A stretch of 41,074 bases of DNA from Porphyromonadaceae bacterium. Lineage in GTDB: Bacteria > Bacteroidota > Bacteroidia > Bacteroidales > UBA12481. A model generated the notes under the pieces. The model ran no database searches, had not been told where the DNA came from, and saw only the letters and a list, made by a program, of their open reading frames with translations. Positions 4,281 to 32,818 of this stretch are shown here, piece by piece (positions within the stretch are counted from its first letter, which is position 1; every line of letters starts with the position of its first letter). The position numbers and the translations under genes are program-made. The stretch lies in the NCBI GenBank assembly GCA_007280905.1, contig QYQM01000094.1, positions 1 through 41,074 of the forward strand, given 5' to 3'.

Positions 4281-5437
4281 AGGCAATAAAAGTTAAGGAA
4301 GGAGTTTACTGGGTTGGAGGGATTGACTGGAATCTCAGGAGCTTTCATGGCTACCTGACTCAGCGGGGAACAACCTATAATGCCTATCTGATCATTGATG
4401 AGAAAATCACCCTGATCGATACGGTTAAATCATATCTGACCAGTGAGATGCTGGATAGGATTCGTTCGGTGGTTGATCCATCGAAAATTGATTATGTAGT
4501 ATGCAATCATGTAGAGATGGACCATTCCGGCGGCCTGCCGGAGATTATGAAAATAGCGCCGAATGCGGCCCTCTTCTGTTCACCCAAAGGAGAAACCGGT
4601 TTGCGTGAACATTATAAGGAGAACTGGAATTTTAAACCCATGGAATCAGGGACGGTTCTTAACCTGGGAAAAAGAAACCTCCATTTCATTCTGACTCCTA
4701 TGGTTCACTGGCCGGATAATATGGTGGTCTATATGCCTGAGGGCAAGATCCTGTTTTCCAATGATGCATTTGGACAACATCTGGCTTCGTCGGAGCGCTT
4801 TGATGATGAATATCCTTTGGATATTACCATGTTGGAAGCACGAAAGTACTATGCAAATATTGTGCTTCCATACTCCAAACAGGTTCAAAAGATCCTGGTC
4901 GGAATTACAGACATTGATATAGAAATCATTGCCGATAGTCATGGCATCATCTGGCGAAAGCATGTTAAAGAAATCATCAGCGGTTATAAAAGCTGGGCCA
5001 GCAATGAAACCCGCAAAAAGGCACTAATTGTTTACGACACCATGTGGCACTCCACGGAAGCGATGGCATTGGCTATTCAGGATGCTTTTGAGCAAAGCGG
5101 TTATGTTACTTCCCTTTTGAGTTTACAATACAACCACATTTCAGATATCATGACAGAAGTAATTGATTCTGAATATATTTGCATAGGTTCTCCTACTTTG
5201 AACGGACGAATGTTGCCGACGATGGCCGCATTCCTTACCTATCTGTTGGGGTTAGCACCCAAAAACCGAAAATCCATTGTGTTCGGGTCATATGGCTGGG
5301 GTCCTAAACAGATTGAGGAAATTGCCACCACGATGACCGAGTCGGGATTTAATGTGGTTGCCACCGAAAAGATAAAATATGTTCCCTCGGCAGAGGACCT
5401 GGATGCATTGCGGGTAAGGATCCTAGGGTTACTGTAG
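4277..5437 (+). CDS. Flavodiiron protein (A-type flavoprotein, O2/NO reductase)
   Basis: Reduces O2 to water and/or NO to N2O in the cytoplasm without releasing reactive oxygen species, taking electrons usually from rubredoxin. The 386 residues contain a metallo-beta-lactamase-like domain with the di-iron ligands H78-x-E80-x-D82 (CNHVEMDHSGG), H144 (MVHWPDN), D163 (FSNDAFGQH) and H222 (ADSHGIIWR). From about residue 249 a flavodoxin-like domain follows, with the FMN-binding loops YDTMWHSTEAMA, GSPTLNGRMLP and GSYGWGPK. There is no C-terminal rubredoxin fusion, so it is the simple class A form. It starts within the ferritin stop codon. The TAG stop at 5435-5437 abuts the repeat element that follows. 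Confidence 0.95.
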   Translation: MKAIKVKEGVYWVGGIDWNLRSFHGYLTQRGTTYNAYLIIDEKITLIDTVKSYLTSEMLDRIRSVVDPSKIDYVVCNHVEMDHSGGLPEIMKIAPNAALFCSPKGETGLREHYKENWNFKPMESGTVLNLGKRNLHFILTPMVHWPDNMVVYMPEGKILFSNDAFGQHLASSERFDDEYPLDITMLEARKYYANIVLPYSKQVQKILVGITDIDIEIIADSHGIIWRKHVKEIISGYKSWASNETRKKALIVYDTMWHSTEAMALAIQDAFEQSGYVTSLLSLQYNHISDIMTEVIDSEYICIGSPTLNGRMLPTMAAFLTYLLGLAPKNRKSIVFGSYGWGPKQIEEIATTMTESGFNVVATEKIKYVPSAEDLDALRVRILGLL

Positions 5438-19767: not shown

Positions 19768-20217
19768 ATGGCCAACAAGATCAGTATAACCAACAAGCAG
19801 GTTTACAGGGAATATGAAATCCTTGAAAAATATACTGCCGGAATTGTCCTCTACGGGACCGAGATCAAATCGATCCGTCAGGGAAAGGCAAGCCTATCGG
19901 ATTCATGGTGTAACTTTATCGATGGAGAACTGTATGCCAGGGGTTTACAGATTGCAGAATATAGTTTTGGCACCCATAATAACCATATCCCCAAGCGAGA
20001 CCGAAAACTTCTTCTTTCCCGCCATGAATTAATAAAACTGGAAAGAAAGGTGAAGGAGAAGGGTTTTACCATCGTTACTATTGAACTCTTTCTCAACGAT
20101 ACAGGGCTCGCCAAGCTGGAAATCGGCCTTGCACGCGGGAAGGCTATTCACGATAAGCGGGAGGATATGAAGAAGAAGGATATGGATAGGGAGATGGAGA
20201 GGCACTTTAAGAAATAG
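19768..20217 (+). CDS. smpB: SsrA-binding protein
   Basis: tmRNA partner in trans-translation that rescues stalled ribosomes. 149 residues; family features include ITNKQVYREYEI, YTAGIVLYGTEIKSIRQG, the YARGLQIAEY strand, and a basic C-terminal tail (DKREDMKKKDMDREMERHFKK) that enters the ribosomal A site. Monocistronic by appearance, with its own -7 box upstream and a hairpin terminator beginning at its stop codon. No tmRNA gene was found in the window. Confidence 0.96.
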   Translation: MANKISITNKQVYREYEILEKYTAGIVLYGTEIKSIRQGKASLSDSWCNFIDGELYARGLQIAEYSFGTHNNHIPKRDRKLLLSRHELIKLERKVKEKGFTIVTIELFLNDTGLAKLEIGLARGKAIHDKREDMKKKDMDREMERHFKK

Positions 20218-20252
20218 ACTGTAAGACTGTAAGACCGTCTTATAGTCTTTTT
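20216..20252 (+). terminator. Rho-independent terminator of smpB
   Basis: agactgtaagac (20216-20227) pairs with gtcttatagtct (20237-20248) with one G-T wobble and a 9-nt loop, followed by a run of T. A second agactgtaagac copy (20224-20235) could pair instead. It sits between convergent genes. Confidence 0.75.
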
Positions 20253-21005
20253 TCAGAGTGCTCTGCCGGGAATTGTCAACCGCACCATTGTGCCGACCCC
20301 GATCTGGCTGCTGACCTCAATGAAGATATCCATCATATCGCACAGTTTTTTAACAACAGACAGACTCATGCCCCTGGCCTTCATTTTTTTCCCTAATGGA
20401 GTATCGGCCGGAGGGAACATCTCAAACAAATTCCTCAATGTTTCTTTATCGATTCCGCAACCGGTATCGTTAACTTCGATCGTGCAATTGGAAGGAGAGG
20501 TCTGTTTGATCACAAGGTCAATACTTCCCAATTTTGTAAACCGCAAACTGTTCTCCATCAATATTTTTATGATCTGAAACAATCTTCCCTTATCGGTAAA
20601 AACCTTAGCTAAAGCATCAGGTGGGGCGATATATGAAATCGCCAAATGGTTTTTCTCGTATAAGGCACTCATCTCATCCATTTCAATCTTTAACTCATCG
20701 ACGAGGTCTTTGAAGTAAACATTTTTGTAAAAAAGTTCAAGATTTCCTGTTTCCATTTTAGCCAGATCGATCAGATTAGACATCAGATCGAGCAGTTTTC
20801 GGGAGCTCCGTGCTATCATCAGGCAATAGCTGCGCTGGTCAGTCCGTGAAACCCGGGGTTCGGCCAGCAAGTCGGAGAAACCTATGATTGCACTCAGCGG
20901 TGTTCTGATATCATGGGAAAGTCCGGACAAATAATTCGGGAAAAGGTGGTTGGCGTCTTCCAATGCCGGTTTGACCTTTTCAAGCAGGTCGATTTGATTA
21001 TTCAT
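20253..21005 (-). CDS. Small histidine kinase (HisKA plus HATPase, no sensor domain)
   Basis: 250 residues. The dimerisation/phosphoacceptor helix carries H31 in LSHDIRTPLSAIIGFSDLL. The catalytic domain shows an N box (MENSLRFT), G1 box (NDTGCGIDK) and G2-like region (GKKMKARGMSLSVVKKLC). No transmembrane segment or PAS domain precedes the H box, so it is cytoplasmic and would need a partner for input. No response regulator is adjacent. Its 5' part (about the first 55 codons) and upstream sequence recur in decayed form at 25727-25870. Related sequences usually belong to hybrid or PAS-linked kinases, so this could be a truncated descendant. Confidence 0.88.
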   Translation of the reverse strand: MNNQIDLLEKVKPALEDANHLFPNYLSGLSHDIRTPLSAIIGFSDLLAEPRVSRTDQRSYCLMIARSSRKLLDLMSNLIDLAKMETGNLELFYKNVYFKDLVDELKIEMDEMSALYEKNHLAISYIAPPDALAKVFTDKGRLFQIIKILMENSLRFTKLGSIDLVIKQTSPSNCTIEVNDTGCGIDKETLRNLFEMFPPADTPLGKKMKARGMSLSVVKKLCDMMDIFIEVSSQIGVGTMVRLTIPGRAL

Positions 21006-21140
21006 CTGATAATGATTGTAATTCCAAATCTAAAATTACGGGGGATTATTTTGAATAAGCAGCTAAATGGCAATTATTTGACCAAAGAATAATTTCCCCC
21101 CCTGAAATGAATAAACAGATGCCTTAGAATAAGTGGTGCA
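20843..21140. repeat. Left copy of a diverged direct duplication (kinase 5' end plus upstream region)
   Basis: 20843-20990 aligns with 25727-25870, and 21101-21140 aligns with 25870-25912, in the same orientation. Shared stretches include cctatgattgcact, gtccggaca and tttgacctttt. The right copy lacks about 110 nt between these two blocks. The left copy retains an intact kinase gene. Confidence 0.75.
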
Positions 21141-21159
21141 AATGCAACTGGTGGTTTTA

Positions 21160-21924
21160 TCACCGGGTCTTCCCCATATGCCGGATTTCCAGATCCCTTA
21201 CCTTTAACTCCAGTTGCCCGGGATAATAAACCAAGCACTCCATGCGGCCATCCACTGGGGCATTTTGGACTCGCCCCCTAAGCCGAAGTAACTGCCAATG
21301 GTCACCAATATCCTGGAGTGAATGGGAATCTTCAAAATAAATTCCGTCAGAATCAGATTGTATCGACTTCAATATCAACCGACCGGGGTTCCTGGCATCC
21401 TGATTAAGAACACAGACGGTCACCTCAATGTAATCCCCATCCTCAACCCCAATAATAACACACTTTTCCGATACCGGCTTTGATGGATTCAATACCTCCA
21501 AACCAGAACCCCTAACTGACCCCCCAACTATAGGCAATGTACCTGTTGCCTTTTCCCCCCATCCATCTTTGTTCCTCACCCTGATGATCATTTCTTTATT
21601 TTCCGGGTTGACGAAAACTGTATCCTTTTCGATTCTTATGCTGGTTTGTGCCGCAAGTGTATCCAGCCAACTTAAAAGTACACCAGCATTCCTGCCGGGC
21701 GAGGAGTAGAGAAAGATATCTCTGCCGTATTTCAGGATGGACTCGGGATCGGCTTCAATAGTACGGAACCACTTCGGGTTGCTGGCTTTACCCTCCCAAG
21801 TAAGAACGTTAGGATAGATTTTATGGAAAGCATCATACAGCCGGTGCCGGTGAGCCACCCAGCTGATTCCGTAAACCAGGGCATTTTCAACCATCGGACC
21901 AGCCAGCCAGGTGGGTTCGATGAA
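21160..21924 (-). pseudogene. Truncated C-terminal copy of the GT-C membrane protein
   Basis: The reading frame is homologous to residues about 417-661 of the protein at 27435-29420. Shared blocks include FIEPTWLAGPMVENAL, ADPESIL, IYSSPGRNA (left copy LYSSPGRNA), DGIYFEDS, LQDIG-HWQLLRLRG (right copy GHGWQ) and IRHMG. Homology stops abruptly at about 21924, where the membrane-spanning 400 residues should begin, and a TGA lies a little further upstream in this frame. The remaining frame is open, with a possible ATG at 21894, but it lacks a signal peptide or membrane segment. It is most simply a remnant left by a rearrangement. A free-standing domain protein is possible but less likely. Confidence 0.75.
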
Positions 21925-22016
21925 CCAAAGAAGTGCAAACAGAATGTTTACGATACATGGGATTACTTTTCAAAGGTTGCTAAGGCCAGAAGGTTGAGCA
22001 TTGCAGATTAGAGCAG

Positions 22017-22211
22017 GTGGTGGCTCTTTATGAGATCAATGACACACCCAGCATCAAAGAGATTGAGGAATTTAGGACTGAACTGCGGTGCCAGATTAAA
22101 CTTATGGAATACCGCATTAGTACATTAAGACCAACAGATCTGGATGAGTCTATTCTGGACTTCTACAGAGAGATGCTGGATGATTTAGACAGTCTGATCC
22201 CGACAGAATAG
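22017..22211 (+). CDS. Small hypothetical protein (64 aa), possibly a gene remnant
   Basis: Opens at a GTG (22017). The frame reads on upstream to a TAA near 21981 without an ATG. Composition is coding-like, acidic and predicted helical (EIEEFRTELRCQIKL, LDESILDFYREMLDDLDSL). Another frame just upstream ends in FSKVAKARRLSIAD before a stop, so this may be the frameshifted tail of a once longer gene. I recognise no family. It sits between the GT-C fragment and the GH16 gene in the rearranged segment. Confidence 0.3.
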   Translation: MVALYEINDTPSIKEIEEFRTELRCQIKLMEYRISTLRPTDLDESILDFYREMLDDLDSLIPTE

Positions 22212-22662
22212 GTCGCTTTCTCTGAAAATCACTTCGCAGGGTAACTACCGCTTAAACTCACGAGGATAATTTTATTATTCATGCATTCAACTACTTACAT
22301 TATAGTTGAAAAATTTTTCAAAAAGCGGGTTACCTTTTGGATTGTTTTCGTATTAACAGATGAACACCTGCCAATACAATTTATTTTAACCACTAACAGA
22401 CCACATTTATGGCACCAAATAGATACATATTCAAAGCCGGATTCTAATCAATAGTTTTGCCCAATGAATCCGGCATAGTATAGACCGTTTGGGCCGATTT
22501 GCATTAGTACAACTGCATAATCAAAATCCATCGAAATAAATGAAATTGGAGGAGCCCATTAATAAATTTTAATTAAAATATCAAGGCCAATAATATTTCT
22601 CTACTAAAACATGAAATGTTTTTTATTCTTTTGCTAAATTATTACTAATAATATTTATTTTT
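22212..22662. other. 451-bp AT-rich intergenic region upstream of the GH16 gene
   Basis: No ORF of note. It holds a perfect 9-bp inverted repeat, gccggattc/gaatccggc (22436-22444 and 22466-22474), and a small hairpin aaaacat-gaa-atgtttt (22606-22622) followed by a T-rich run about 40 nt before the GH16 ATG, which looks like a leader hairpin or terminator. A clean TAnnTTTG box is not seen; TTATTCTTTTG at about 22623 comes near. Promoters for the secreted pair presumably lie here. Confidence 0.45.
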
Positions 22663-23721
22663 ATGAAAAAAGCAATCAAATATTTTAAAATCATTGCATT
22701 TCTGCTGATATGGAATGATATCCCAACAATTTGCCAAACGCCCTTCAACGATCCTAATTGGAATACTACAAATCTCCAATTCAATATCAGTTTTATTAAT
22801 ACCCTACCAGATACTGTAAATACATGGCTACCTAACGTTTCGAGTGCTCAGTCCCTAATTTACAGTGGGCCCCCATGCACACATGATAAGGTTTATTACA
22901 CCCATCAATTCCAGAATATGTTCACGGATTCCCAAGGTTTGCATTTTGTTGCAAAGTATTTGCCAACCCAGATTTATCGAAAACGTTTAGATTATTGGCG
23001 ACCTGACACTGTTCTTTGCGATGGTTACACTAACGCCATGTATTTCAACTATACCTCGGCAGCATTAACGTCAAGACAGGATTTTAAATATGGCTATTTT
23101 GAGGCCTCAATAAAAGTACCTCAAGGTCAAGGGCTGTTTCCGGCGTTTTGGATGCAGCAGTATAATCAAGAATTTGATATTATGGAAATGACACCAGAAC
23201 AGTCGGCCTCTGCGATTGTGTATCAAGCAAATGTATATGGGACTACAATTAAAAGTAAGGATATAGTGGGCCCGTGGGGCACTCCCTCGATCAATTTGTC
23301 TGATACATTTCATAAATACGGAATCGAATGGTCAATGGGAAGAGTAACATTTTTTCTCGACGATTCGCCTGTGAGAATGACTTCAGGTCCGCTTGGAACG
23401 TTCATCGCAGACATTAACATTCAAATAATTCTAGATTTATGTGTTAATCCGTGGGGTCAGGTCACCAATCCACCACCCGACAAGGAAATGATAGTCAGAT
23501 ATGTTAAGGCTTATTCTTTTAAAGCTCAGAGTGGAAATATTACTTCAATACCAGATTATAATTCCTTTAATTATAAGGTGTATACAACGTATGTCCTTGG
23601 TAGTTCAACTGTAAATGCTTCTAATGTCTATCTTCGAGCGAAAGATCTTATTCAATTCAATAACGATTTCGAAGTTCCCCAAAACAGGAATTTCTACGCA
23701 ATAACTACAAAACTTAATTAA
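22663..23721 (+). CDS. Secreted glycoside hydrolase family 16 (beta-glucanase-like)
   Basis: 352 residues. Signal peptide MKKAIKYFKIIAFLLIW to about residue 25. The GH16 jelly-roll is marked by GYFEASIKVPQGQGLFPAFW (about 144-163) and the catalytic motif E170-F-D172-I-M-E175, nucleophile and acid/base of the retaining mechanism. A WSMGRVTFFLDD strand follows at about 224-235. GH16 members hydrolyse beta-1,3/1,4-glucans, laminarin, agarose or carrageenan; the sequence alone does not fix the substrate. The last 60 residues (NVYLRAKDLIQF and onward) look like a short beta-structured tail often found in secreted Bacteroidota proteins. It lies 12 nt before the S74/T9SS gene. Codon use is visibly more AT-rich than the housekeeping genes. 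Confidence 0.9.
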   Translation: MKKAIKYFKIIAFLLIWNDIPTICQTPFNDPNWNTTNLQFNISFINTLPDTVNTWLPNVSSAQSLIYSGPPCTHDKVYYTHQFQNMFTDSQGLHFVAKYLPTQIYRKRLDYWRPDTVLCDGYTNAMYFNYTSAALTSRQDFKYGYFEASIKVPQGQGLFPAFWMQQYNQEFDIMEMTPEQSASAIVYQANVYGTTIKSKDIVGPWGTPSINLSDTFHKYGIEWSMGRVTFFLDDSPVRMTSGPLGTFIADINIQIILDLCVNPWGQVTNPPPDKEMIVRYVKAYSFKAQSGNITSIPDYNSFNYKVYTTYVLGSSTVNASNVYLRAKDLIQFNNDFEVPQNRNFYAITTKLN

Positions 23722-23733
23722 AAATCTGAAACC

Positions 23734-24723
23734 ATGAAAACAATACAAAAAATTAATTTTTCGATCTTCTTATTGATATTTTTAAGTACCCCAGGCTTCA
23801 CACAAATGAGAGTCTGGAATAACACTACTGAAAGTGTGAATGGCCAAGTGTTAATAGGAGATTTCACCAGCCCTTGGGATGGTCAACTTAATATCAAAAA
23901 TACTACCCCTGATAAAAGAACATTATATCTTCAGCATAATGCTTCATCTGATGGTAAACACTGCCTCACAATTAACGTTAACAGATTATTGTCTGAAGCT
24001 TGGGTTGTGATGTATAATGGGGCTGCCAAGTCTTTTGCTAGAGGTAATGGGAATATTTATTCAAACGGCGTTTTATTGACTTCAGATAGTACATTAAAAA
24101 GAGACATTAAGCCTTTATTAAGTGTTAAGAAACAGCTTTTTATGCTTAATGGCTATTCTTATTATAGGAAAGACGATGGTGGCCTGCTCCCAAAAAGGGA
24201 GATTGGATTCCTAGCTCAAGAAGTTGAAAAAGTATTTCCAGAAACCGTTGATACAGCTTTTGGTGGCAAGAAAGTACTTTCCTATACATCTATGATTCCA
24301 ATTATTGTTGAAGCAATGAAAGAGCAACAAACTGAAATTGAACAGTTGAAAGGACAAATTTCCAATCTTTCTGACCGGCTAGAAAGCCTGGAAAAGAAGT
24401 TTGAGAAAGGAGGTTTAGCTCCTGCGCCTCAAAACAATACCGCAGCTGCAAATCCCGAACAATCAAATTTATTTCAAAATACGCCTAATCCATTTTCGGA
24501 ATCAACAACAATTCGGTATAGCCTTCCTTTAGCATGCAGTACCGCACGGTTGATCATTTTCGATTCACAAGGTATCGAGAAGAAGAACTTTCTAATAGTA
24601 TCTCGTGGCGTTTCGGAAACCATAATTAATGCTCGAGAGCTAAATCCAGGAACTTATGTATATACCTTAGTGGTTGATGGCCGTTCCGTGGATACAAAAA
24701 CCATGATATTGACAGCTAATTAA
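23734..24723 (+). CDS. Secreted protein with S74 chaperone domain and T9SS type A sorting domain
   Basis: 329 residues. Signal peptide 1-24 (KINFSIFLLIFLSTPGFTQ). After a short N-terminal region, residues 117-200 form a peptidase S74 intramolecular chaperone domain, beginning S117-D-S-T-L-K122-R-D-I, the self-cleavage site and Ser/Lys dyad of the family, with IGFLAQEVEKVFPE and a SYTSMIPIIVEAMKE helix. A coiled coil follows (about 195-225, EIEQLKGQISNLSDRLESLEKKF). Residues 246-329 are a T9SS C-terminal sorting domain (LFQNTPNPFSESTTIRYSLP ... NPGTYVYTLVVDG ... KTMIL). It would trimerise and be exported or surface-attached via T9SS. Cotranscribed with GH16. Confidence 0.9.
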   Translation: MKTIQKINFSIFLLIFLSTPGFTQMRVWNNTTESVNGQVLIGDFTSPWDGQLNIKNTTPDKRTLYLQHNASSDGKHCLTINVNRLLSEAWVVMYNGAAKSFARGNGNIYSNGVLLTSDSTLKRDIKPLLSVKKQLFMLNGYSYYRKDDGGLLPKREIGFLAQEVEKVFPETVDTAFGGKKVLSYTSMIPIIVEAMKEQQTEIEQLKGQISNLSDRLESLEKKFEKGGLAPAPQNNTAAANPEQSNLFQNTPNPFSESTTIRYSLPLACSTARLIIFDSQGIEKKNFLIVSRGVSETIINARELNPGTYVYTLVVDGRSVDTKTMILTAN

Positions 24724-24747
24724 TTATAATTTAATTCGTTAGGGAGG

Positions 24748-24780
24748 AAGAGGTTGTCGAAGGAAAGGCAACCTCTTTTC
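24748..24780 (+). terminator. Rho-independent terminator after the GH16/S74 pair
   Basis: aagaggttg (24748-24756) pairs perfectly with caacctctt (24769-24777), 12-nt loop, followed by a T-rich tail (ttcttattt). It is 25 nt past the stop. Confidence 0.75.
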
Positions 24781-24884
24781 TTATTTGAAGGTTTAATATA
24801 CTGTTGTTCAGAAAGATTCAAGTTTAAACTTTTTTATCTAACCAAGATAACGTTACACCGTTTCATTTAATAATCATCTTTGTT

Positions 24885-24892
24885 TATCTTTG
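24885..24892 (+). promoter_or_regulatory. Candidate -7 box (TATCTTTG) of the methyltransferase gene
   Basis: TATCTTTG fits TAnnTTTG and lies 64 nt upstream of the ATG at 24957. The -33 position does not match TTTG well. Confidence 0.35.
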
Positions 24893-24956
24893 AAAGCGCT
24901 TCTCAACTTTACAAAGGGAAATAAGTGTTTCGACAAAGAACCAGAATTCTCATCTC

Positions 24957-25721
24957 ATGAAATTAAAATATCAGATTAACCTCCCTCTTGATTCCCCGGA
25001 ACGGACAATAATTCATAGGAATTTAATTAAATCAAAAAAGTTTCTCAGAAAATTATATGAACAATGGTATTCTGAGTTCTCAAATGAAATCTCGTCTAGT
25101 CCCCAGGGTTTATTATTGGAACTGGGCTCTGGGGGAGGTTTCCTGAAAGAGATGGAACCAAGGGTTATTTGTTCGGATGTCATAGACCTACCCACTAATG
25201 ATATGACATTTTCGGCATTAGAAATGCCTTTTGAAGATCAATCCGTGGCTGCTATTTTTATGACTGACGCTATGCACCATATACCGGATTCTGAGAAATT
25301 CCTCCAGGAAGTAAATAGAGTATTAGTGGACAATGGCAAGTTGATTTTGATAGAGCCTGCTAATAGTATTTGGGGGAGGTTTATTTTTAGGAACTTCCAT
25401 CACGAACCTTTTGATCCAAGAGCTTCCTGGACTATCCCATCATCCGGTCCTATGTCGGGAGCTAACGGTGCATTGCCCTGGATTATCTTCGTAAGAGACT
25501 TTTTAATTTTTCAACAGAAATTTCCTAAACTCGAGATACAAGTTATAAATTACAGGAATCCGGTTTTATATCTGGTGAGTGGCGGAGTTTCTTATCGACA
25601 ATTGTTGCCTGATTTCTTTTACGGATTCTTAAATCTTATAGATAAAACACTGCCAAAGATATCTAAACAATTATCCATGTTCATGCTTGTTAAGATTACT
25701 CGAATTCCGGAACTACACTGA
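24957..25721 (+). CDS. Class I SAM-dependent methyltransferase
   Basis: 254 residues. The SAM-binding motif I is LLLELGSGGG (52-61), followed by an acidic strand end (ICSDVID) and the DAMHHIPD motif typical of UbiE/PF08241 small-molecule and glycan-precursor methyltransferases, then VLVDNGKLILIEPAN. The C-terminal half has aromatic and hydrophobic segments (PWIIFVRDFLIFQQ, LLPDFFYGFLNLI) that may contact a lipid or membrane. The substrate is unknown; the neighbouring GT2 and GT-C genes suggest a lipid-linked or surface-glycan target. Its stop directly abuts the decayed kinase copy. No strong Shine-Dalgarno site. Confidence 0.85.
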   Translation: MKLKYQINLPLDSPERTIIHRNLIKSKKFLRKLYEQWYSEFSNEISSSPQGLLLELGSGGGFLKEMEPRVICSDVIDLPTNDMTFSALEMPFEDQSVAAIFMTDAMHHIPDSEKFLQEVNRVLVDNGKLILIEPANSIWGRFIFRNFHHEPFDPRASWTIPSSGPMSGANGALPWIIFVRDFLIFQQKFPKLEIQVINYRNPVLYLVSGGVSYRQLLPDFFYGFLNLIDKTLPKISKQLSMFMLVKITRIPELH

Positions 25722-25726
25722 TCGGC

Positions 25727-25870
25727 CCGTGAAACTATGGGTCAGCAAGCAAGTTGGAGAGACCTATGATTGCACTGACCGGAGTTCGTATATCATACGA
25801 CAGTCCGGACAGATAATTGTGAAATAGGTGGTTCACGCTTCCAATATTGGTTTGACCTTTTCCAGAAGGT
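25727..25870 (-). pseudogene. Relic of the histidine kinase 5' end (right repeat copy)
   Basis: Minus-strand translation gives LLEKVKPILEA, then after a one-base frameshift NHLFHNYLSGLSYDIRTPV, then SAIIGLSNLLADP and a stop. The intact kinase reads NHLFPNYLSGLSHDIRTPL at the same place, so the phosphoacceptor His is Tyr here. The rest of the gene is missing. It begins 5 nt past the methyltransferase stop. Confidence 0.85.
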
Positions 25871-25953
25871 CTGAAATGAAAAAACAGATGCCGCATAATA
25901 ATTGGCTGAAGAAATAGAATTGATGTTAATTTTAACCCGTTAACAATCGAAGC

Positions 25954-27369
25954 ATGTTAGAAACAGGAAAAGAGGTGATCCATGATTATTTCGACCGTTT
26001 GGCAGCACAACGCGACAGGTGGCGCAGGCGCAACTGGTTTTATCACCGGACAATGGAAAAGCAATACCGGATGATAATTCCGGAAGGTTCATCGGTTCTG
26101 GAACTCGGGTGCGGAATGGGAGATTTATTGAATGCTGTAAAACCGGGTGTAGGCTGCGGGATTGATTTTTCAGAAGGCATGATAGAAAAGGCTAAAACCA
26201 AGTATCCGGGATTATCATTCTATCATGCTGATGCCGGACTCTTTACCTGTGATATCCGCTTCGATTACGTGATCATGAGCGACCTGCTCAGTTCTTTATG
26301 GGATATTCAGGAGGTGATCAGAAACCTTAGGAACCTGATTCATCCGCGGACAAAGATCATTATCTCATCATACAGCTATATTTGGGAACCAGTACTCCGT
26401 TTCGGTGAATTTGTCGGCCTTAAAGCCAAACAGCCTCTTCAAAGCTGGCTAACGGTTAGCGACATATCAGGACTATTAAACATTGAAAAATTTGAGATTG
26501 TAAAAGTCAACCGGAAGCTTCTTCTACCTATTTACCTGCCGATTATTAACCTGATTATTAATACTTTTCTCGCTAATCTCCCGGGGATTAACAGTTTTTG
26601 CCTCATCAACCTGATTACGGCCCGGCCGGTATTCAGGAAAGAGGAGCAATATTCAGTAAGCATTATTGTCCCGGCCCGGAATGAAAAAGAAAATATTGAA
26701 AATGCCATTAAACGTACGCCGGCATTCGGGACTCATCAGGAGTTCATTTTTATTGAAGGAAATTCCAGCGATAACACCTGGGAGGAAATCCTCAGGGTTA
26801 GGGATACCTATCCTGAAAAGGATATCAAAGTTTTGAAGCAATCAGGCAAAGGAAAGGGTAATGCCGTTCGTGAAGCTTTTGAGGAAGCCAGTGGCGAAAT
26901 ACTTATGATTCTTGACGCTGACCTGACCACCCCTCCAGAGGATATGCCCAAATTTTATGAAGCACTTTCGATGAACCGGGGTGAGTTCATAAATGGGTGC
27001 CGGTTGGTATATCCGATGGATAAAGAAGCCATGAGGTTTCTCAACTTCCTGGCAAACAAGTTTTTTGGTTGGTTTTTCTCCTACATTTTGGGCCAGCGCT
27101 TAAAAGATACGTTATGCGGGACTAAAGTTCTGTTCAAAAAAGATTACGAATTAATCAAGAATAACCGTAAATATTTTGGAGATTTTGATCCATTCGGAGA
27201 TTTTGATCTGATCTTTGGCGCTGCCAAACTGAACCTGAAGATCACTGAAGTAATTGTCAGGTACCGCGACAGGGAATATGGATCAACACAGATCAGCCGT
27301 TTCAGGCATGGCATTTTATTAATACGGATGAGCCTGTTTGCAGCACGGAAAATTAAATTCACACGATGA
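25954..27369 (+). CDS. Fusion of a SAM methyltransferase and a GT2 glycosyltransferase
   Basis: 471 residues. Residues about 40-185 are a class I methyltransferase (VLELGCGMGDL at 48-58, IDFSEGMIEKA, DYVIMSDLLSSL). Residues about 190-225 are hydrophobic (LLPIYLPIINLIINTF), perhaps a membrane contact. From about 233 a GT2 domain of the DPM1/polyprenyl-phosphate type follows: VSIIVPARNEKENI, FIEGNSSDNT, nucleotide-binding DAD at 321-323 in MILDADLTTPPEDM, GCRLVYPMD and the DTLCGTKVLF motif typical of DPM1-like enzymes. It probably transfers a sugar to a polyprenyl phosphate used by the downstream GT-C protein. The start is the first ATG after the duplicated sequence. Confidence 0.88.
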   Translation: MLETGKEVIHDYFDRLAAQRDRWRRRNWFYHRTMEKQYRMIIPEGSSVLELGCGMGDLLNAVKPGVGCGIDFSEGMIEKAKTKYPGLSFYHADAGLFTCDIRFDYVIMSDLLSSLWDIQEVIRNLRNLIHPRTKIIISSYSYIWEPVLRFGEFVGLKAKQPLQSWLTVSDISGLLNIEKFEIVKVNRKLLLPIYLPIINLIINTFLANLPGINSFCLINLITARPVFRKEEQYSVSIIVPARNEKENIENAIKRTPAFGTHQEFIFIEGNSSDNTWEEILRVRDTYPEKDIKVLKQSGKGKGNAVREAFEEASGEILMILDADLTTPPEDMPKFYEALSMNRGEFINGCRLVYPMDKEAMRFLNFLANKFFGWFFSYILGQRLKDTLCGTKVLFKKDYELIKNNRKYFGDFDPFGDFDLIFGAAKLNLKITEVIVRYRDREYGSTQISRFRHGILLIRMSLFAARKIKFTR

Positions 27370-27434
27370 TTCAGAAAGCATTTCACAAAAATTGTTTGAC
27401 TGTATAGATTAATAACGATTAAACGCCAAACAGT

Positions 27435-29420
27435 ATGTTAACTACCAGATTTAGGCAAATAGTACTACTATTAATTCCAGTTCTTTACCTGGCCTGGAGC
27501 CTGCAGTTGAATCTTTTGGGAGGCCCCTTTTCTTTATCCCGGAGTGACCCTGAATATCCCTATTTACTGAACGGTTTAAACTGTGCCACGCTGGATTTCA
27601 ATAACATCGGGCACACCGATCATCCCGGAACTCCATTTCAGATGATAACCGGGCTATTTATCAGAGTGACACATGTTTTCATCGGGCAGGAACCTCTTGT
27701 CCAGGATGTTCTTTCGCGTCCTGAAACGTATCTTGCATGCGCTTCACTTTTCCTCTCTTTTCTTACCTTCCTGCTTCTATACTGGCTGGGCGATATTGCC
27801 ATCCGCCATGAAGGCAAGCTGACTGGTGCCATTATCCTTCAAGCCTCAATCCTCCTGAGTACAGTTTTGCTTGAAATGCCGATCAGGTATAGTCCTGACC
27901 GGATGCTTGTAATTTATAATATCGCATTTGCCGGATTTACCATTAAATATCTGTTAAGTAAGAATTATCCGATCAGGTTATATGCAATCATTTCCGGAAT
28001 ACTGATGGGTGTTGGCGTTGCTACAAAATTCAATTTTCTTCCTGTCCTCATTATTCCGCTGCTGCTGATTCCGGATTTCCGGAACAGGCTTATCTATGGT
28101 TTCACCATTGCAGCCTCGTTTTTTATCAGTGTGCTCCCGATACTCAGTAAATTCAAGGAATTTCGCCAGTTTATCTCCGGAGTTGCATCTCATGACGGCC
28201 TGTACGGACATGGATCACAACAAATGATCAACTGGAAGTCATTCAGCCACAATTTTTGGGAGTTGCTATCGTATAATCCGGCTTTTTCGATTATTCTGAT
28301 TATATCAATCGGATTGATTCTTTTCTATTTTCTGGATAAAAAGAAATTTAATGCTGATGACCGCCTCCTCTTGGTACTGAAAGCCTTTGTTTTAGCCTCT
28401 TTTGTAGGATTCATTTTAGTGTCGAAACACTTCAAGGTCTATTACTTTGCACCCGTATTGAGCTTATGCGGACTGGTATTATTCATGATCTGGAAGATTT
28501 CAGGTGTTCAGATGAAATCAAAGAAAACACATACGATTTCAACCATTGCTCTGCTCATAATACTCGTGGTTATATCCGTAATTCCTTTGCCAGCGCAATA
28601 TCGATCCCGGATAGCCCAAAAGCGGGCCAATCTGAAAACACAGCAATTTTTTGCGGAAAATGTTACGCGAAAGGATTTGCTTTTCATCGAACCTACCTGG
28701 CTGGCCGGTCCAATGGTGGAGAATGCCCTGATGTACGGAATCAGCTATGTTGCCCACCGTCAGGAGTTCTATCTGGATTACAAGCAGATTTACCCCCACG
28801 TGATTACATGGGAAGGTACCGGTAAGAATCCCGGGCTTTCCCGGACAGCTGAAGCCGATCCTGAATCTATTCTTTTTAGCGGCAGGGACATATTTATTTA
28901 TTCCTCACCGGGACGGAATGCCAGCGTACTGCTAAATTTCCTTGATACATTGGCTGGTAGATTCGGAACGTGGGTTTCCAGGGATACAGTATTTTCGAAC
29001 TTAGAAAATGAAGACCGGGTAATCAGGGTAAGAAATATAGATGGATGGTCAACCCTGCTTGATATTAAGAAGATTACCGATCCTGCTGAATTGTCGCCGG
29101 CGAACCCGATAAGCCAGGCAATACCAATAACAGGCGTAACTGCCGGTGATTACCTGGAAATAACCATCCGCATTTCCGGTAACGATAATGATGCCAGGGG
29201 ACGTATAATTGCTCGATCCGTTCAATCAGATCAGGATGGAATCTATTTTGAGGATTCCGGATCTCTTCAAGACATTGGCCATGGCTGGCAGCTCTTACGA
29301 TTACGCGGAAAATTAAATTCAACTCCGGCCGACGGAAAGATGGTTTGCCAAGTTTATTATCCCGGAAACAAAACAATCACCGTTCAGGACTTGCAAATCA
29401 GGCATATGGGACGCAGATAA
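27435..29420 (+). CDS. Multispanning GT-C-type membrane protein with soluble C-terminal domain
   Basis: 661 residues. Residues 10-385 contain about nine or ten hydrophobic segments, consistent with a GT-C (PMT/ArnT-like) glycosyltransferase that uses a polyprenyl-phosphate sugar. The first periplasmic loop carries the acidic pair D38-x-E40 (RSDPEYPYL), the usual GT-C catalytic motif, and a HTDHPGTPFQ stretch. From about 395 to 661 there is an extracytoplasmic region without membrane segments, ending IRHMGRR and probably beta-rich (GDYLEITIRIS, WQLLRLRGKL, MVCQVYYPG). This C-terminal region is duplicated at 21160-21924. It follows the GT2 fusion by 65 nt. The target is unknown. Confidence 0.8.
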   Translation: MLTTRFRQIVLLLIPVLYLAWSLQLNLLGGPFSLSRSDPEYPYLLNGLNCATLDFNNIGHTDHPGTPFQMITGLFIRVTHVFIGQEPLVQDVLSRPETYLACASLFLSFLTFLLLYWLGDIAIRHEGKLTGAIILQASILLSTVLLEMPIRYSPDRMLVIYNIAFAGFTIKYLLSKNYPIRLYAIISGILMGVGVATKFNFLPVLIIPLLLIPDFRNRLIYGFTIAASFFISVLPILSKFKEFRQFISGVASHDGLYGHGSQQMINWKSFSHNFWELLSYNPAFSIILIISIGLILFYFLDKKKFNADDRLLLVLKAFVLASFVGFILVSKHFKVYYFAPVLSLCGLVLFMIWKISGVQMKSKKTHTISTIALLIILVVISVIPLPAQYRSRIAQKRANLKTQQFFAENVTRKDLLFIEPTWLAGPMVENALMYGISYVAHRQEFYLDYKQIYPHVITWEGTGKNPGLSRTAEADPESILFSGRDIFIYSSPGRNASVLLNFLDTLAGRFGTWVSRDTVFSNLENEDRVIRVRNIDGWSTLLDIKKITDPAELSPANPISQAIPITGVTAGDYLEITIRISGNDNDARGRIIARSVQSDQDGIYFEDSGSLQDIGHGWQLLRLRGKLNSTPADGKMVCQVYYPGNKTITVQDLQIRHMGRR

Positions 29421-29449
29421 ATAAAATATTAAAATTCAGTCACATCAAG

Positions 29450-32400
29450 ATGATCAAATCGATGACTATTTCCCGGTTAAGTCTCATGTTCGGACTTGCC
29501 GTATTTTCTCTGCAGTTGACTGCATCGGAGAAAACACCCAAAGTCTTGTGGCAGATTGGGAAAACTGACCGGAATACAGCGGAATTTGCACTGGCTCCGT
29601 CGGCGCACAGACAATTCACTCATGACGGCTTTTTTATCATCGGTGCATCGGATCCTGCAAAGGATTGGCCATACGTGCAGCCCGGACCGGGTGATACCTG
29701 GGCCGGTGGCCGCCCGCATACCTACACGATTGCATTCGGGATGAAGGAAGCAGGCAAAACCGACTCCTGCAAACTTATTATTGATCTGGCGGATACACAC
29801 AATTCGATACCCCCAGTGCTTGAAATCAAAATTAATGACCAATCTTTTTCATTAGATATGCCTGCAGGCAGCGGAGATGCCTCGATCAACGGTGATCCGG
29901 CTGCTGGTAAACCCTACCAGATTCAGCTAAGTTTTCCATCGTCAGGATTGAAAAAGGGAACCAACGAAATATCAATCACATCCAAATCGGGCAGCTGGAT
30001 ACTTTACGATGCTTTAAGGCTGGAAGGCCCTGACTACCTGAAACCTGAGCCCATGAATACTTATCTGGCCATCACGGATATCCAGGCGTCACAAGGGGTT
30101 TATTCACAGGGCGGGGCGCTTTACCGCGACGTCAGGCTCACGGTTCAATATGCAGGCAAGTCATTTTCGGGCAAGCTGACTTCGAATGGCATGGCTCTTT
30201 CTGAAGTGGATATAATACCTGGCGGTCAGGCATTTACGATCAAGATTCCTGAAGTTTCCCAATCAGCGGTTTATAATTTTGGAATCAACAAGGGCGAAAA
30301 ACCCGTTGTATCAAAAGATCTGGTGGTAAGGCCGGTGAAGAAAATGACTATTTACATACTGCCCCATTCACATACCGATATAGGCTATACCGAAATCCAG
30401 ACGGCAATCGAAGAAAAACAGGTGAAAAACCTGGTTGACGGTATCCGCTATGCCAAACAAACGGCCGGATATCCTGAAGGTGCCCGTTTTGTTTGGAACG
30501 TGGAAGTGACCTGGGCTGCCGACCTGTATTTGAACCGGTTGGGTGAGGAAGCCAAAAAAGATTTCTTTGAGGCGGCCAAAAACGGGCAGATATCCTTCAA
30601 CGGAATGTATCTGAATGAATTAACCGGCCTCTGCCGGCCGGAGGAATTATTGCGCCTGTTCAAATATTCTACTGAACTGGCAAAAACGACAGGCCAAACC
30701 ATTGATGCGGCTATGATCAGCGATGTACCGGGATATACCTGGGGAACAGTAACAGCTATGGCACAGGCCGGGATCAGATATTTCTCGGTGGCACCCAATT
30801 ATTTCGACAGGATTGGTGATATCCTGGAAAAGTGGGAAAATAAGCCATTCTGGTGGATTTCCCCATCCGGACAAGAAAAAGTTCTGGTTTGGATCCCGCT
30901 CAAAGGTTATGCGCTTTCGCATATGATCTCAAAACTGACACCTGAGTGGGTATCAGATTACCTGGGGCAACTTGCAAAAATGAATTATCCGTATGATATT
31001 GCACACATACGCTGGAGCGGTCATGGCGATAATGCGGTTCCCGACCCGGCCATTTGTGAATTTGTAAAAGACTGGAACACAAAGTATACCTGGCCAAAGT
31101 TCATTATATCCTCAACCAGTGTGGCTTTTAGTGCTTTTGAAAAGAAATACGGAAAACAGATCCCATCCGTGTCGGGCGACTGGACACCTTATTGGGAAGA
31201 TGGGGCCGGTTCATCGGCTTTGGAAACCGGGATAAACCGGAATACAGCCGAGCGTCTCAGTCAAGCTGAGGTACTCTGGGCTTTGCAGGATCCGGCAAAA
31301 TATCCGGTTGGAAAATTTGAAGATGCCTGGAAAAAGGTTCTGCTCTATTCAGAACATACCTGGGGAGCCTGGTGCAGCATTACTGATCCTGAAAACCAAA
31401 TGACTAAGGAACAATGGGAGATCAAGAAGGGCTATGCAAATGAAGCAGCCGGAATGACGGAGGAATTGTTTAAACCGCGGATGACCGATGTCCTAGGGAG
31501 TAAGATTGACATAGTGAATACCAACAGCTGGACACGGAAGGAGATGGTTTTCTTATCGAAAGAGCAGAGTTCTGCCGGGGATAAGGTGGTTGATGAATCG
31601 GGCAAGATTATGAAATCCCAAAGGCTTGCCAATGGGGAACTGGCAGTTCTCGGAACTGTTATTGCACCATTTTCATCGTCAAAGTTTACGATAGTGACGG
31701 GCAAGGTTATTCCGGAAGGCTCCGTGATCATTTCCGGGAATAAAATCAGCAACAATCTGATTGAATGCGCAATCGATCCGATCAAAGGAGATATTACATC
31801 ATTGATTGACAAGCGGACCGGGAAAAATATAATAGATAAAACCGGAGGGAAAGCCGCAAATCAGTACATTTTCCTGGAAGGCAATGATCTGGCAAACCTG
31901 AAAAGTAATGGCCAGGTGAAAATCACCATCAAGGAAAACGGCCCGCTCGTGGGATCTGTTGAAATAACCTCGGAGGCTCCCGGATGCAACAAACTGATAC
32001 GGCAGGTCTGGTTGTCCCATGATGCAGATTATCTGGTTATTATCAATATAGTGGATAAGAAGCGTGCCCCGATGCCTGAAAAAGTGGGCGAATGGTATAT
32101 GGCACAGAATAAGAACAAAGAGAGTGTGAATTTTGGATTTCCGTTTGCTGTTCCCGGAGGGGTAATGAGGCTGGACCTGCCTTTAGGTCAGATGATTCCG
32201 GAGCAGGATCAGATGCCAGGTGCTTGCAAGAACTGGTTTACGGTTGGTCGTTGGGCCGATGTGTCCAACGAGCGCGAAGGAGTAACCTGGGTTACGTTGG
32301 ATGCTCCTCTTGTTGAGGTAGGGGAGATTTCGGCTACCCTGATCGGATCACAGAATAATCCGGATATCTGGAGAAAAAAGGTTGAACCCACTCAAACCCT

Positions 32401-32818
32401 GTATTCATGGGCAATGAACAACCATTGGGGTACCAATTACCGCCAGCACCAGGAAGGTCCTATAATGTTCCGGTATATTCTGAGACCGCATGGGGCATTT
32501 GACGCAACGGAAACATCCCGGTTTGCCACCGGATTCAGTCAGCCACTCATTGTCAGGCCAGCATCCAGGGAGCCTTACACCGCACCATTTACACTTGACA
32601 GCAAATCGGTTACGGTTATTGCTTTCAAGCCGGCAGATGATGGTGACGGTTTTATACTCACCCTATATAACCCGGGAAAATCGACAGACAACTTTACTCT
32701 GAAACCCGTATCAGGAAGCAAGACATGGATGTGCAATACGGGTGAAAATAAATTAGGTGAGTTACCAGGAACTGTTGAATTAGCCGGCCAGGGGGTAATG
32801 ATGGTGAGGTTCTGGTAG
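29450..32818 (+). CDS. Secreted GH38-like alpha-mannosidase family protein with N-terminal lyase-type domains
   Basis: 1122 residues from the ATG at 29450; the frame is open from 29345 inside the upstream gene, but MIKSMTISRLSLMFGLAVFSLQLTA is a signal peptide. Residues about 30-193 resemble the beta-sandwich CBM-like domain of rhamnogalacturonan lyases (VLWQIG, AFGMKE, WILYDALRLEGP). After an Ig-like linker, the GH38 (beta/alpha)7 domain begins at about 300 with the zinc ligands H308 and D310 in PHSHTDIGYT and the likely nucleophile D425 in ISDVPGYTWG. The C-terminal half is the GH38 beta-sandwich region (MNNHWGTNY, FRYILRPHG). It probably acts on alpha-mannoside or related glycans in the periplasm or outside. 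No sugar transporter is adjacent. Confidence 0.85.
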   Translation: MIKSMTISRLSLMFGLAVFSLQLTASEKTPKVLWQIGKTDRNTAEFALAPSAHRQFTHDGFFIIGASDPAKDWPYVQPGPGDTWAGGRPHTYTIAFGMKEAGKTDSCKLIIDLADTHNSIPPVLEIKINDQSFSLDMPAGSGDASINGDPAAGKPYQIQLSFPSSGLKKGTNEISITSKSGSWILYDALRLEGPDYLKPEPMNTYLAITDIQASQGVYSQGGALYRDVRLTVQYAGKSFSGKLTSNGMALSEVDIIPGGQAFTIKIPEVSQSAVYNFGINKGEKPVVSKDLVVRPVKKMTIYILPHSHTDIGYTEIQTAIEEKQVKNLVDGIRYAKQTAGYPEGARFVWNVEVTWAADLYLNRLGEEAKKDFFEAAKNGQISFNGMYLNELTGLCRPEELLRLFKYSTELAKTTGQTIDAAMISDVPGYTWGTVTAMAQAGIRYFSVAPNYFDRIGDILEKWENKPFWWISPSGQEKVLVWIPLKGYALSHMISKLTPEWVSDYLGQLAKMNYPYDIAHIRWSGHGDNAVPDPAICEFVKDWNTKYTWPKFIISSTSVAFSAFEKKYGKQIPSVSGDWTPYWEDGAGSSALETGINRNTAERLSQAEVLWALQDPAKYPVGKFEDAWKKVLLYSEHTWGAWCSITDPENQMTKEQWEIKKGYANEAAGMTEELFKPRMTDVLGSKIDIVNTNSWTRKEMVFLSKEQSSAGDKVVDESGKIMKSQRLANGELAVLGTVIAPFSSSKFTIVTGKVIPEGSVIISGNKISNNLIECAIDPIKGDITSLIDKRTGKNIIDKTGGKAANQYIFLEGNDLANLKSNGQVKITIKENGPLVGSVEITSEAPGCNKLIRQVWLSHDADYLVIINIVDKKRAPMPEKVGEWYMAQNKNKESVNFGFPFAVPGGVMRLDLPLGQMIPEQDQMPGACKNWFTVGRWADVSNEREGVTWVTLDAPLVEVGEISATLIGSQNNPDIWRKKVEPTQTLYSWAMNNHWGTNYRQHQEGPIMFRYILRPHGAFDATETSRFATGFSQPLIVRPASREPYTAPFTLDSKSVTVIAFKPADDGDGFILTLYNPGKSTDNFTLKPVSGSKTWMCNTGENKLGELPGTVELAGQGVMMVRFW

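Follow-up and report, generated by a model that had tools for sequence, protein, structure and literature searches.

In Vibrio cholerae, effector-immunity modules of the type VI secretion system (T6SS) were described as displacing one another sequentially at a fixed site, and homology-facilitated illegitimate recombination was proposed as the process (PMC5361080). In the account of transformation-induced merodiploidy by unequal crossing-over, partly repeated donor DNA gave rise to repeat-bordered duplications of about 100-900 kb (PMC3784515). Dimorphic loci were described as holding exactly two alternative segments at one backbone site, with 10-18% of variable segments flanked by repeats (PMC2884548). 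Here, we analyzed a 41,074-nt stretch of a Porphyromonadaceae bacterium genome (contig QYQM01000094.1, positions 1 to 41,074; hereafter the window), in which the 5' part of a histidine kinase gene (HK) occurs twice in direct orientation. The second, decayed copy is called HK'. In our reading, which has about an even chance of being correct, these direct repeats are the scar left when two versions of one locus recombined and came to lie side by side.

The window is contig 103 of a draft genome (G000) in 185 contigs, listed as 99.27% complete and 0.56% contaminated. It was compared with seven congeners (G001-G007) among 59 relatives, a thin sampling of the genus.

The repeat is genuine and beyond chance. 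Local alignment of 20800-21170 with 25690-26060 scored 151, compared with a mean of 19 and a maximum of 30 in 500 dinucleotide-preserving shuffles. The original prediction, that the kinase 5' part and its upstream region recur in the same orientation, was borne out, and the repeat reaches further than claimed. Its HK part (left 20835-20990, right 25718-25871) was identical at 126 of 153 aligned nt with four one-base gaps, and a weaker outer extension to 20830/25713 was 73% identical over 30 nt. The right copy was decayed, as predicted. In addition to the four gaps, the phospho-acceptor His codon CAT of the left copy (20915) was TAT (Tyr) in the right copy, and the spacing of the copies fell from 4881-4883 to 4769, a loss of about 108-112 nt from the right copy.

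As anticipated by the same prediction, the alignment continued beyond the kinase coding part. A 35-nt intergenic block after the HK part (21102-21136 and 25871-25905) was identical at 30 of 35 positions, a score reached by 0/2000 shuffles. Furthermore, the left 21133-21166 matched 26019-26049, which are codons ~22-32 of the methyltransferase-GT2 fusion gene (MT-GT2), with four mismatches and three inserted bases (0/2000 shuffles). About 117 nt are missing from the left copy ahead of this MT-GT2 stub, and the spacing then returns to 4886. The stretch was nearly the same in G006 (score 23, reached by 3/2000 shuffles), so the age of the stub is not readable from the stub itself. The left 21066-21114 resembled the HK upstream region of G005, and the right distal intergenic DNA (25897-25947) resembled the DNA upstream of MT-GT2 in G006 (0/500 shuffles in each case). 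The junctions of the segment were located at ~21166 and ~25703-25718. A DNA search of the own genome gave no third copy, with only 19-30 nt matches outside the window. The best of these, 30 nt on contig C79, lay inside a gene resembling PEP carboxykinase (named by eye) and was dismissed as chance.

The congeners carried two alternative cassettes between HK and a GH38-like alpha-mannosidase gene. Cassette A consists of MT-GT2 and the membrane-protein gene 661A and points right; cassette B consists of a stand-alone GT2 gene (GT2B) and 661B and points left. In type A (G006 and G007), only one HK is present; it lies immediately next to MT-GT2 in divergent orientation, with 123 nt and 153 nt, respectively, separating the two start codons, and 661A and the mannosidase gene follow. 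In type B (G004 and G005), HK is followed by 661B and GT2B on the HK strand and then by the mannosidase gene. In G002, a contig that breaks off within 661B carried GT2B (with a broken frame in the assembly), 661B and the mannosidase gene, and the genome yielded no close HK (best 27%). In G003, HK adjoined an epimerase-family gene, and a different contig carried an A-like 661 next to a gene for NDP-hexose 2,3-dehydratase; G001 had neither a 661 match nor a close HK. Therefore, two of the seven congeners are of type A, two are of type B, one has the B genes without the HK side, and two have neither. None of the seven carried both cassettes. A profile search of the genome contigs with the 661 alignment returned six loci, those of G002-G007.

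The flanks of the locus were conserved. Close HK homologues adjoined smpB in five of the seven congeners, and the SmpB-HK (left) and mannosidase (right) anchors were on one contig in G004, G006 and G007. In G005, the anchors were on two contigs (L044 and L045), which both terminate within HK and share an exact overlap of 141 nt, as expected at a branch of the assembly graph. G005 may likewise have a polymorphic or duplicated HK, or the two halves of its locus may come from different strains. Type B as an inverted type A was rejected, as MT-GT2 had no match at 1e-5 in the B loci. GT2B shared only 23% identity with MT-GT2 of G027. The MT-GT2 stub was not detectable in the B loci of G004 and G005, where at best 52/500 shuffles scored as high.

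The window combined both arrangements. A complete cassette A was present on the right, and HK, the stub and the end of 661B that faces HK, as in the B genomes, were present on the left. GT2B was absent from the own genome at E<=1e-30. The 661B fragment showed amino acid identities of 69.7% to 661B of G004, 67.3% to 661B of G005 and 56.7% to its own 661A. In the 661 tree, A and B were split with 100/100 support, and grouping the fragment with its own 661A was rejected by the approximately unbiased (AU) test (p 0.0003). The best tree joined the fragment to G004 with weak support (73/72), and joining it to G005 was not rejected (p 0.219). Holding the 661A of the window with the gene of G005 was rejected (p 1e-71). 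Thus, the segment between the repeat copies was not derived from the duplicated unit, since its 661B fragment groups with the B genes of other species. Because 661B belongs to the alternative cassette, which G004 and G005 carry at this position and in this orientation, two versions of the locus took part in the event.

These results support in part the origin first proposed for the repeats, an insertion or tandem-duplication scar. Relatives with a single kinase directly beside MT-GT2 do exist (G006 and G007), which was the condition named in favor of insertion, but the segment is not a plain insertion, as it starts with a 661B fragment of the alternative cassette. A pure tandem duplication does not supply 661B.

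The fragment contained no stops in 256 codons. Free drift would be expected to give 3.4 stops at 0.1 substitutions per site (P of none 0.03) and 1.7 at 0.05 (P 0.19). Therefore, the fragment was either recently cut off or is still used. The backbone tree (SmpB, mannosidase, UvrA, DLD and HK) united G004 with G006 (100/100), and G006 covers just 34% of the alignment columns; the window was joined to G005 (89/91), a grouping that is not firm. The cassette phylogeny conflicts with this backbone, as G004 and G006 are united in it and yet belong to opposite cassette clades.

The repeat, the two cassette types, the B affinity of the fragment and the positions of both junctions are established by these data. 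A path to the present arrangement can be proposed, in which we infer the transfer between genomes, the mode of recombination, its direction and the order of events. The interval between HK and the mannosidase gene would serve as a cassette-exchange site in the genus. A segment from a related lineage, with HK and the cassette in one version, would recombine with a resident chromosome that carried the other version. HK, the intergenic region and the beginning of MT-GT2 would provide the homology for anchoring, and the far end would be joined either through unequal crossing-over or without homology. A single chromosome would then carry the kinase start of both versions as direct repeats; cassette A would be intact on the right, and only remnants of B would persist on the left. 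One of the HK copies would be reduced to its first ~58 codons and start to decay, the left MT-GT2 would be cut to the stub, and most of 661B and all of GT2B would be lost. The position of HK next to MT-GT2 in both copies points to A-like junctions as the source of both, and to a B-like one as the source of 661B. Recombination with DNA of a relative, anchored in HK and MT-GT2, would be the simplest path to this combination. More broadly, and tentatively, with somewhat under an even chance, the HK-mannosidase junction may be an exchange site throughout the genus, at which two old, oppositely oriented alternatives of a glycan-related module (GT2 and 661) were kept across species, and this chromosome, with both alternatives present, may have been caught in the middle of a swap.

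Synonymous sites approach saturation between these species. The divergence of the two kinase copies was compared with simple expectations. Of 27 differences between HK and HK', 17 (63%) were synonymous; this count omits five differences at the uncertain outer edge, and including them gave 20/32 (P 0.001-0.004). Free drift of HK' since the duplication predicts ~37% (~10 of 27; P 0.003-0.008). Constraint on both copies throughout predicts 76-87% at omega 0.05-0.1 (P 0.002-0.08), and omega 0.2 fits (P 0.62). Given the excess of synonymous differences, much of the divergence would therefore have arisen while both copies were constrained. These counts would be fitted best if the copies diverged as working alleles before one of them decayed.

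Several observations weigh against recombination between two locus versions. HK' was nearer to its own HK (blastn 79.5%, 156 nt) than to any relative (G005, 72.7%, 117 nt), as a duplication within the lineage predicts. The shared intergenic block had 5 differences in 35 nt, fewer than a deep split would give. The comparison of HK with HK' covers just 153 nt, its P values come from a simple model, and constraint on both copies throughout was not rejected at omega 0.1-0.2 (P 0.08-0.62). No genome was found that would represent a donor or an intermediate.

In the first rival explanation, the HK 5' end, the intergenic region and the start of MT-GT2 were tandemly duplicated within the lineage, and the locus later suffered deletions and acquired 661B and the AT-rich genes. 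The closeness of HK' to its own HK and the presence of both the intergenic block and the MT-GT2 start in each copy suit this history. On its own, it leaves unexplained why the 661B next to the left HK is of B type and is placed as in the B genomes, and decay from birth disagrees with the synonymous fraction given above unless HK' was functional for long. We therefore regard it as unlikely.

Alternatively, a common ancestor may have held both cassettes, with each lineage losing one and the window keeping a trace of the second. In agreement with this, dN within A (window-G006, 0.223) was about that within B (G004-G005, 0.238), and both were close to the HK divergence of the same pairs (0.213 and 0.215-0.226). 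However, HK next to MT-GT2 in both copies implies an ancestor without B between them, and the seven congeners include no genome with both cassettes; such an ancestral double locus appears distinctly improbable.

An assembly chimera of two strains with different cassettes was also considered. The genome is a draft in 185 contigs, and the break inside HK in the G005 assembly, with its exact overlap, is the usual mark of a graph branch. Nevertheless, a chimera would not invent the one-base gaps and the stub of the decayed repeat copies, and the listed completeness and contamination also speak against it, which makes it very improbable.

Scarcely credible is a transposon or integrative element that brought the AT-rich genes and left the repeats as its target duplication: the low GC and the merely distant GH16 and S74 matches in the searched congeners would agree with it, but transposon target duplications are far shorter than ~340 nt, 661B lies inside the segment, and there was no recombinase among the tested open reading frames (ORFs), no tRNA in the window and no inverted repeat that pairs the borders.

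Recombination between two locus versions may also have reached the kinase itself. SmpB of the window was about equally far from G005 and G004 (identity 94.6 and 94.0), as was the mannosidase gene (81.9 and 81.4), whereas HK was an outlier, with 82.6% to G005 and 70.8% to G004. In 150-nt windows over 20335-20784, G005 was the closer of the two to the window, by 3-14 points; single 150-nt windows elsewhere favored G005 by up to 9, and 20935-21084 was nearer to G004. At most, this hints at an exchange of HK itself.

The features of the locus are listed below. The true start of the GH38-like gene is probably further right than 29345.

Table. Coordinates of features at the HK-mannosidase locus of the window.
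Feature	Coordinates	Strand	Evidence and remarks
smpB, conserved left anchor	19768..20217	+	Pfam SmpB; adjoins HK in G003, G004, G005, G006, G007
HK, intact short histidine kinase, HisKA + HATPase_c, 250 aa	20253..21005	-	Pfam
Left repeat copy, HK 5' part and upstream region	20830..21136	.	Alignment, shuffles
MT-GT2 stub, codons ~22-32, left copy	21133..21166	+	Score 31 or 33 reached by 0/2000 shuffles
661B fragment, C-terminal ~256 codons, open frame, remainder missing	21160..21936	-	Identity, tree, AU test
AT-rich stretch without recognised gene	21937..22662	.	
GH16-family glycoside hydrolase	22663..23721	+	PF00722
Peptidase_S74 (endosialidase chaperone) protein with type IX secretion system (T9SS) sorting tail	23734..24723	+	PF13884; TIGR04183 23.8 bits, cut-off 23
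MTs, small methyltransferase	24957..25721	+	Pfam; homologues
HK', decayed HK 5' end, codons ~5-58, right repeat copy	25713..25871	-	Alignment
Intergenic DNA	25871..25953	.	25871-25905 common to left copy; 25897-25947 G006-like
MT-GT2, methyltransferase-GT2 fusion, cassette A	25954..27369	+	Pfam; 88% aa to G006, 75% to G007
661A, predicted many-helix protein with beta-rich C-terminal part, cassette A	27435..29420	+	68% to G006
GH38-like alpha-mannosidase, conserved right anchor	29345..32818	+	Pfam; adjoins cassette in G002, G004, G005, G006, G007

The segment had been described as holding AT-rich, foreign-looking genes and no recombinase. GC was 0.32-0.38 across 21937-25721 compared with 0.44 for the window, which agrees with the description, but the 661B fragment next to the left HK had a GC of 0.485. 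The foreign look holds only in part, as MTs has a 70% identical homologue in a congener (G006, at another site). The lack of a recombinase was upheld by Pfam among the tested ORFs of the segment, whose matches were GH16, Peptidase_S74 and methyltransferase, with none for the 661B fragment. A repeat scan of 20000-28000 found no inverted pair joining the borders and gave the long diverged direct repeat instead. No Rfam families were detected in 20900-26100 and no tRNA in the window.

Matches to the GH16 and S74 genes in congeners were all distant, and the best GH16 match among the 59 relatives reached just 36% over 163 aa. GH16- and S74-like genes were also neighbors, within 3.4 kb, in a genome from a different family (G029:C17:21178-24602), as in the window.

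MTs lies upstream of MT-GT2 in the window, with HK' in between. MTs homologues were directly upstream of MT-GT2 in G017 and G045 (L085 and L086), genomes of other families; this is two of the 11 other genomes with an MT-GT2 match at E<1e-100 among the 59 relatives searched, in some of which the contigs end too near to judge. From this gene order, MTs may be a functional partner of MT-GT2 rather than a random passenger. It may have come in together with the segment, or it may be a trace of an older MTs-MT-GT2 order. The DNA similarity of MTs to G006 ends at 25703 and HK' starts at 25713-25718; therefore, the last codons and the stop of MTs come from the junction. The MTs homologue of G007 was frameshifted, and that of G001 (L087 9986-10312) apparently lacks the middle ~130-140 codons with both ends kept.

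A non-coding element of ~160-180 nt at 22267-22428 was 67-80% alike at G000:C166:11338-11520 and G000:C126:26273-26454. In all three places, it was ~155-235 nt upstream of a same-strand ORF with a signal-peptide-like start (by eye), and it is possibly a shared leader or promoter. The C166 copy is preceded, at a distance of ~300 nt, by the end of an ORF that resembles an IS630 transposase (by eye). At 22020-22211, a short open stretch on the + strand ends at ~22211 like a protein tail (by eye), with stops further upstream in frame.

The GT2 parts of both cassettes resembled polyprenyl-phosphate sugar transferases in NCBIfam, far below the cut-offs, and both cassettes may modify glycans, judging from these sequence similarities. 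661A matched no Pfam or NCBIfam family, and its AlphaFold model was poor (mean pLDDT 50.6). A search of 661 against PDB sequences gave no match (best E 0.13), and the Foldseek matches, several of which were carbohydrate-binding modules, had very low TM-scores (0.10-0.15 by query). The structure attempts gave no definition, and 661 is not claimed as a GT-C enzyme.

A chromosome with parts of two alternative cassettes is easily missed because the anchor gene looks merely duplicated. If recombination between two locus versions is correct, the locus shows exchange of a glycan-related module without a recombinase of its own. It would also provide a small genome set (A, B and both) for asking whether the alternation is selected, with phage pressure on surface sugars as one speculative example. 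The process would be an ordinary one, caught at an informative stage.

The process is of an already known kind, and the locus is a new case of it. A literature search on xenologous replacement in Bacteroidetes found nothing. As in the V. cholerae T6SS loci described in PMC5361080, a module would have been replaced at a fixed site, with old remnants left beside the new one. In contrast to that description, the cassettes here are glycosyltransferase and membrane-protein genes, what remains is part of a gene, and the anchor gene has been duplicated in part. Homology-facilitated illegitimate recombination as outlined in PMC3240628, with one homologous and one illegitimate end, could leave such a scar; here, the product alone is seen. 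The merodiploidy duplications reported in PMC3784515 differ in scale, as the spacing here is 4.9 kb, and the copies here are diverged. The dimorphic loci of PMC2884548 likewise have two alternatives between the same backbone anchors. They were described within a species, whereas the alternatives of this locus are distributed across congeners with near-saturated synonymous sites.

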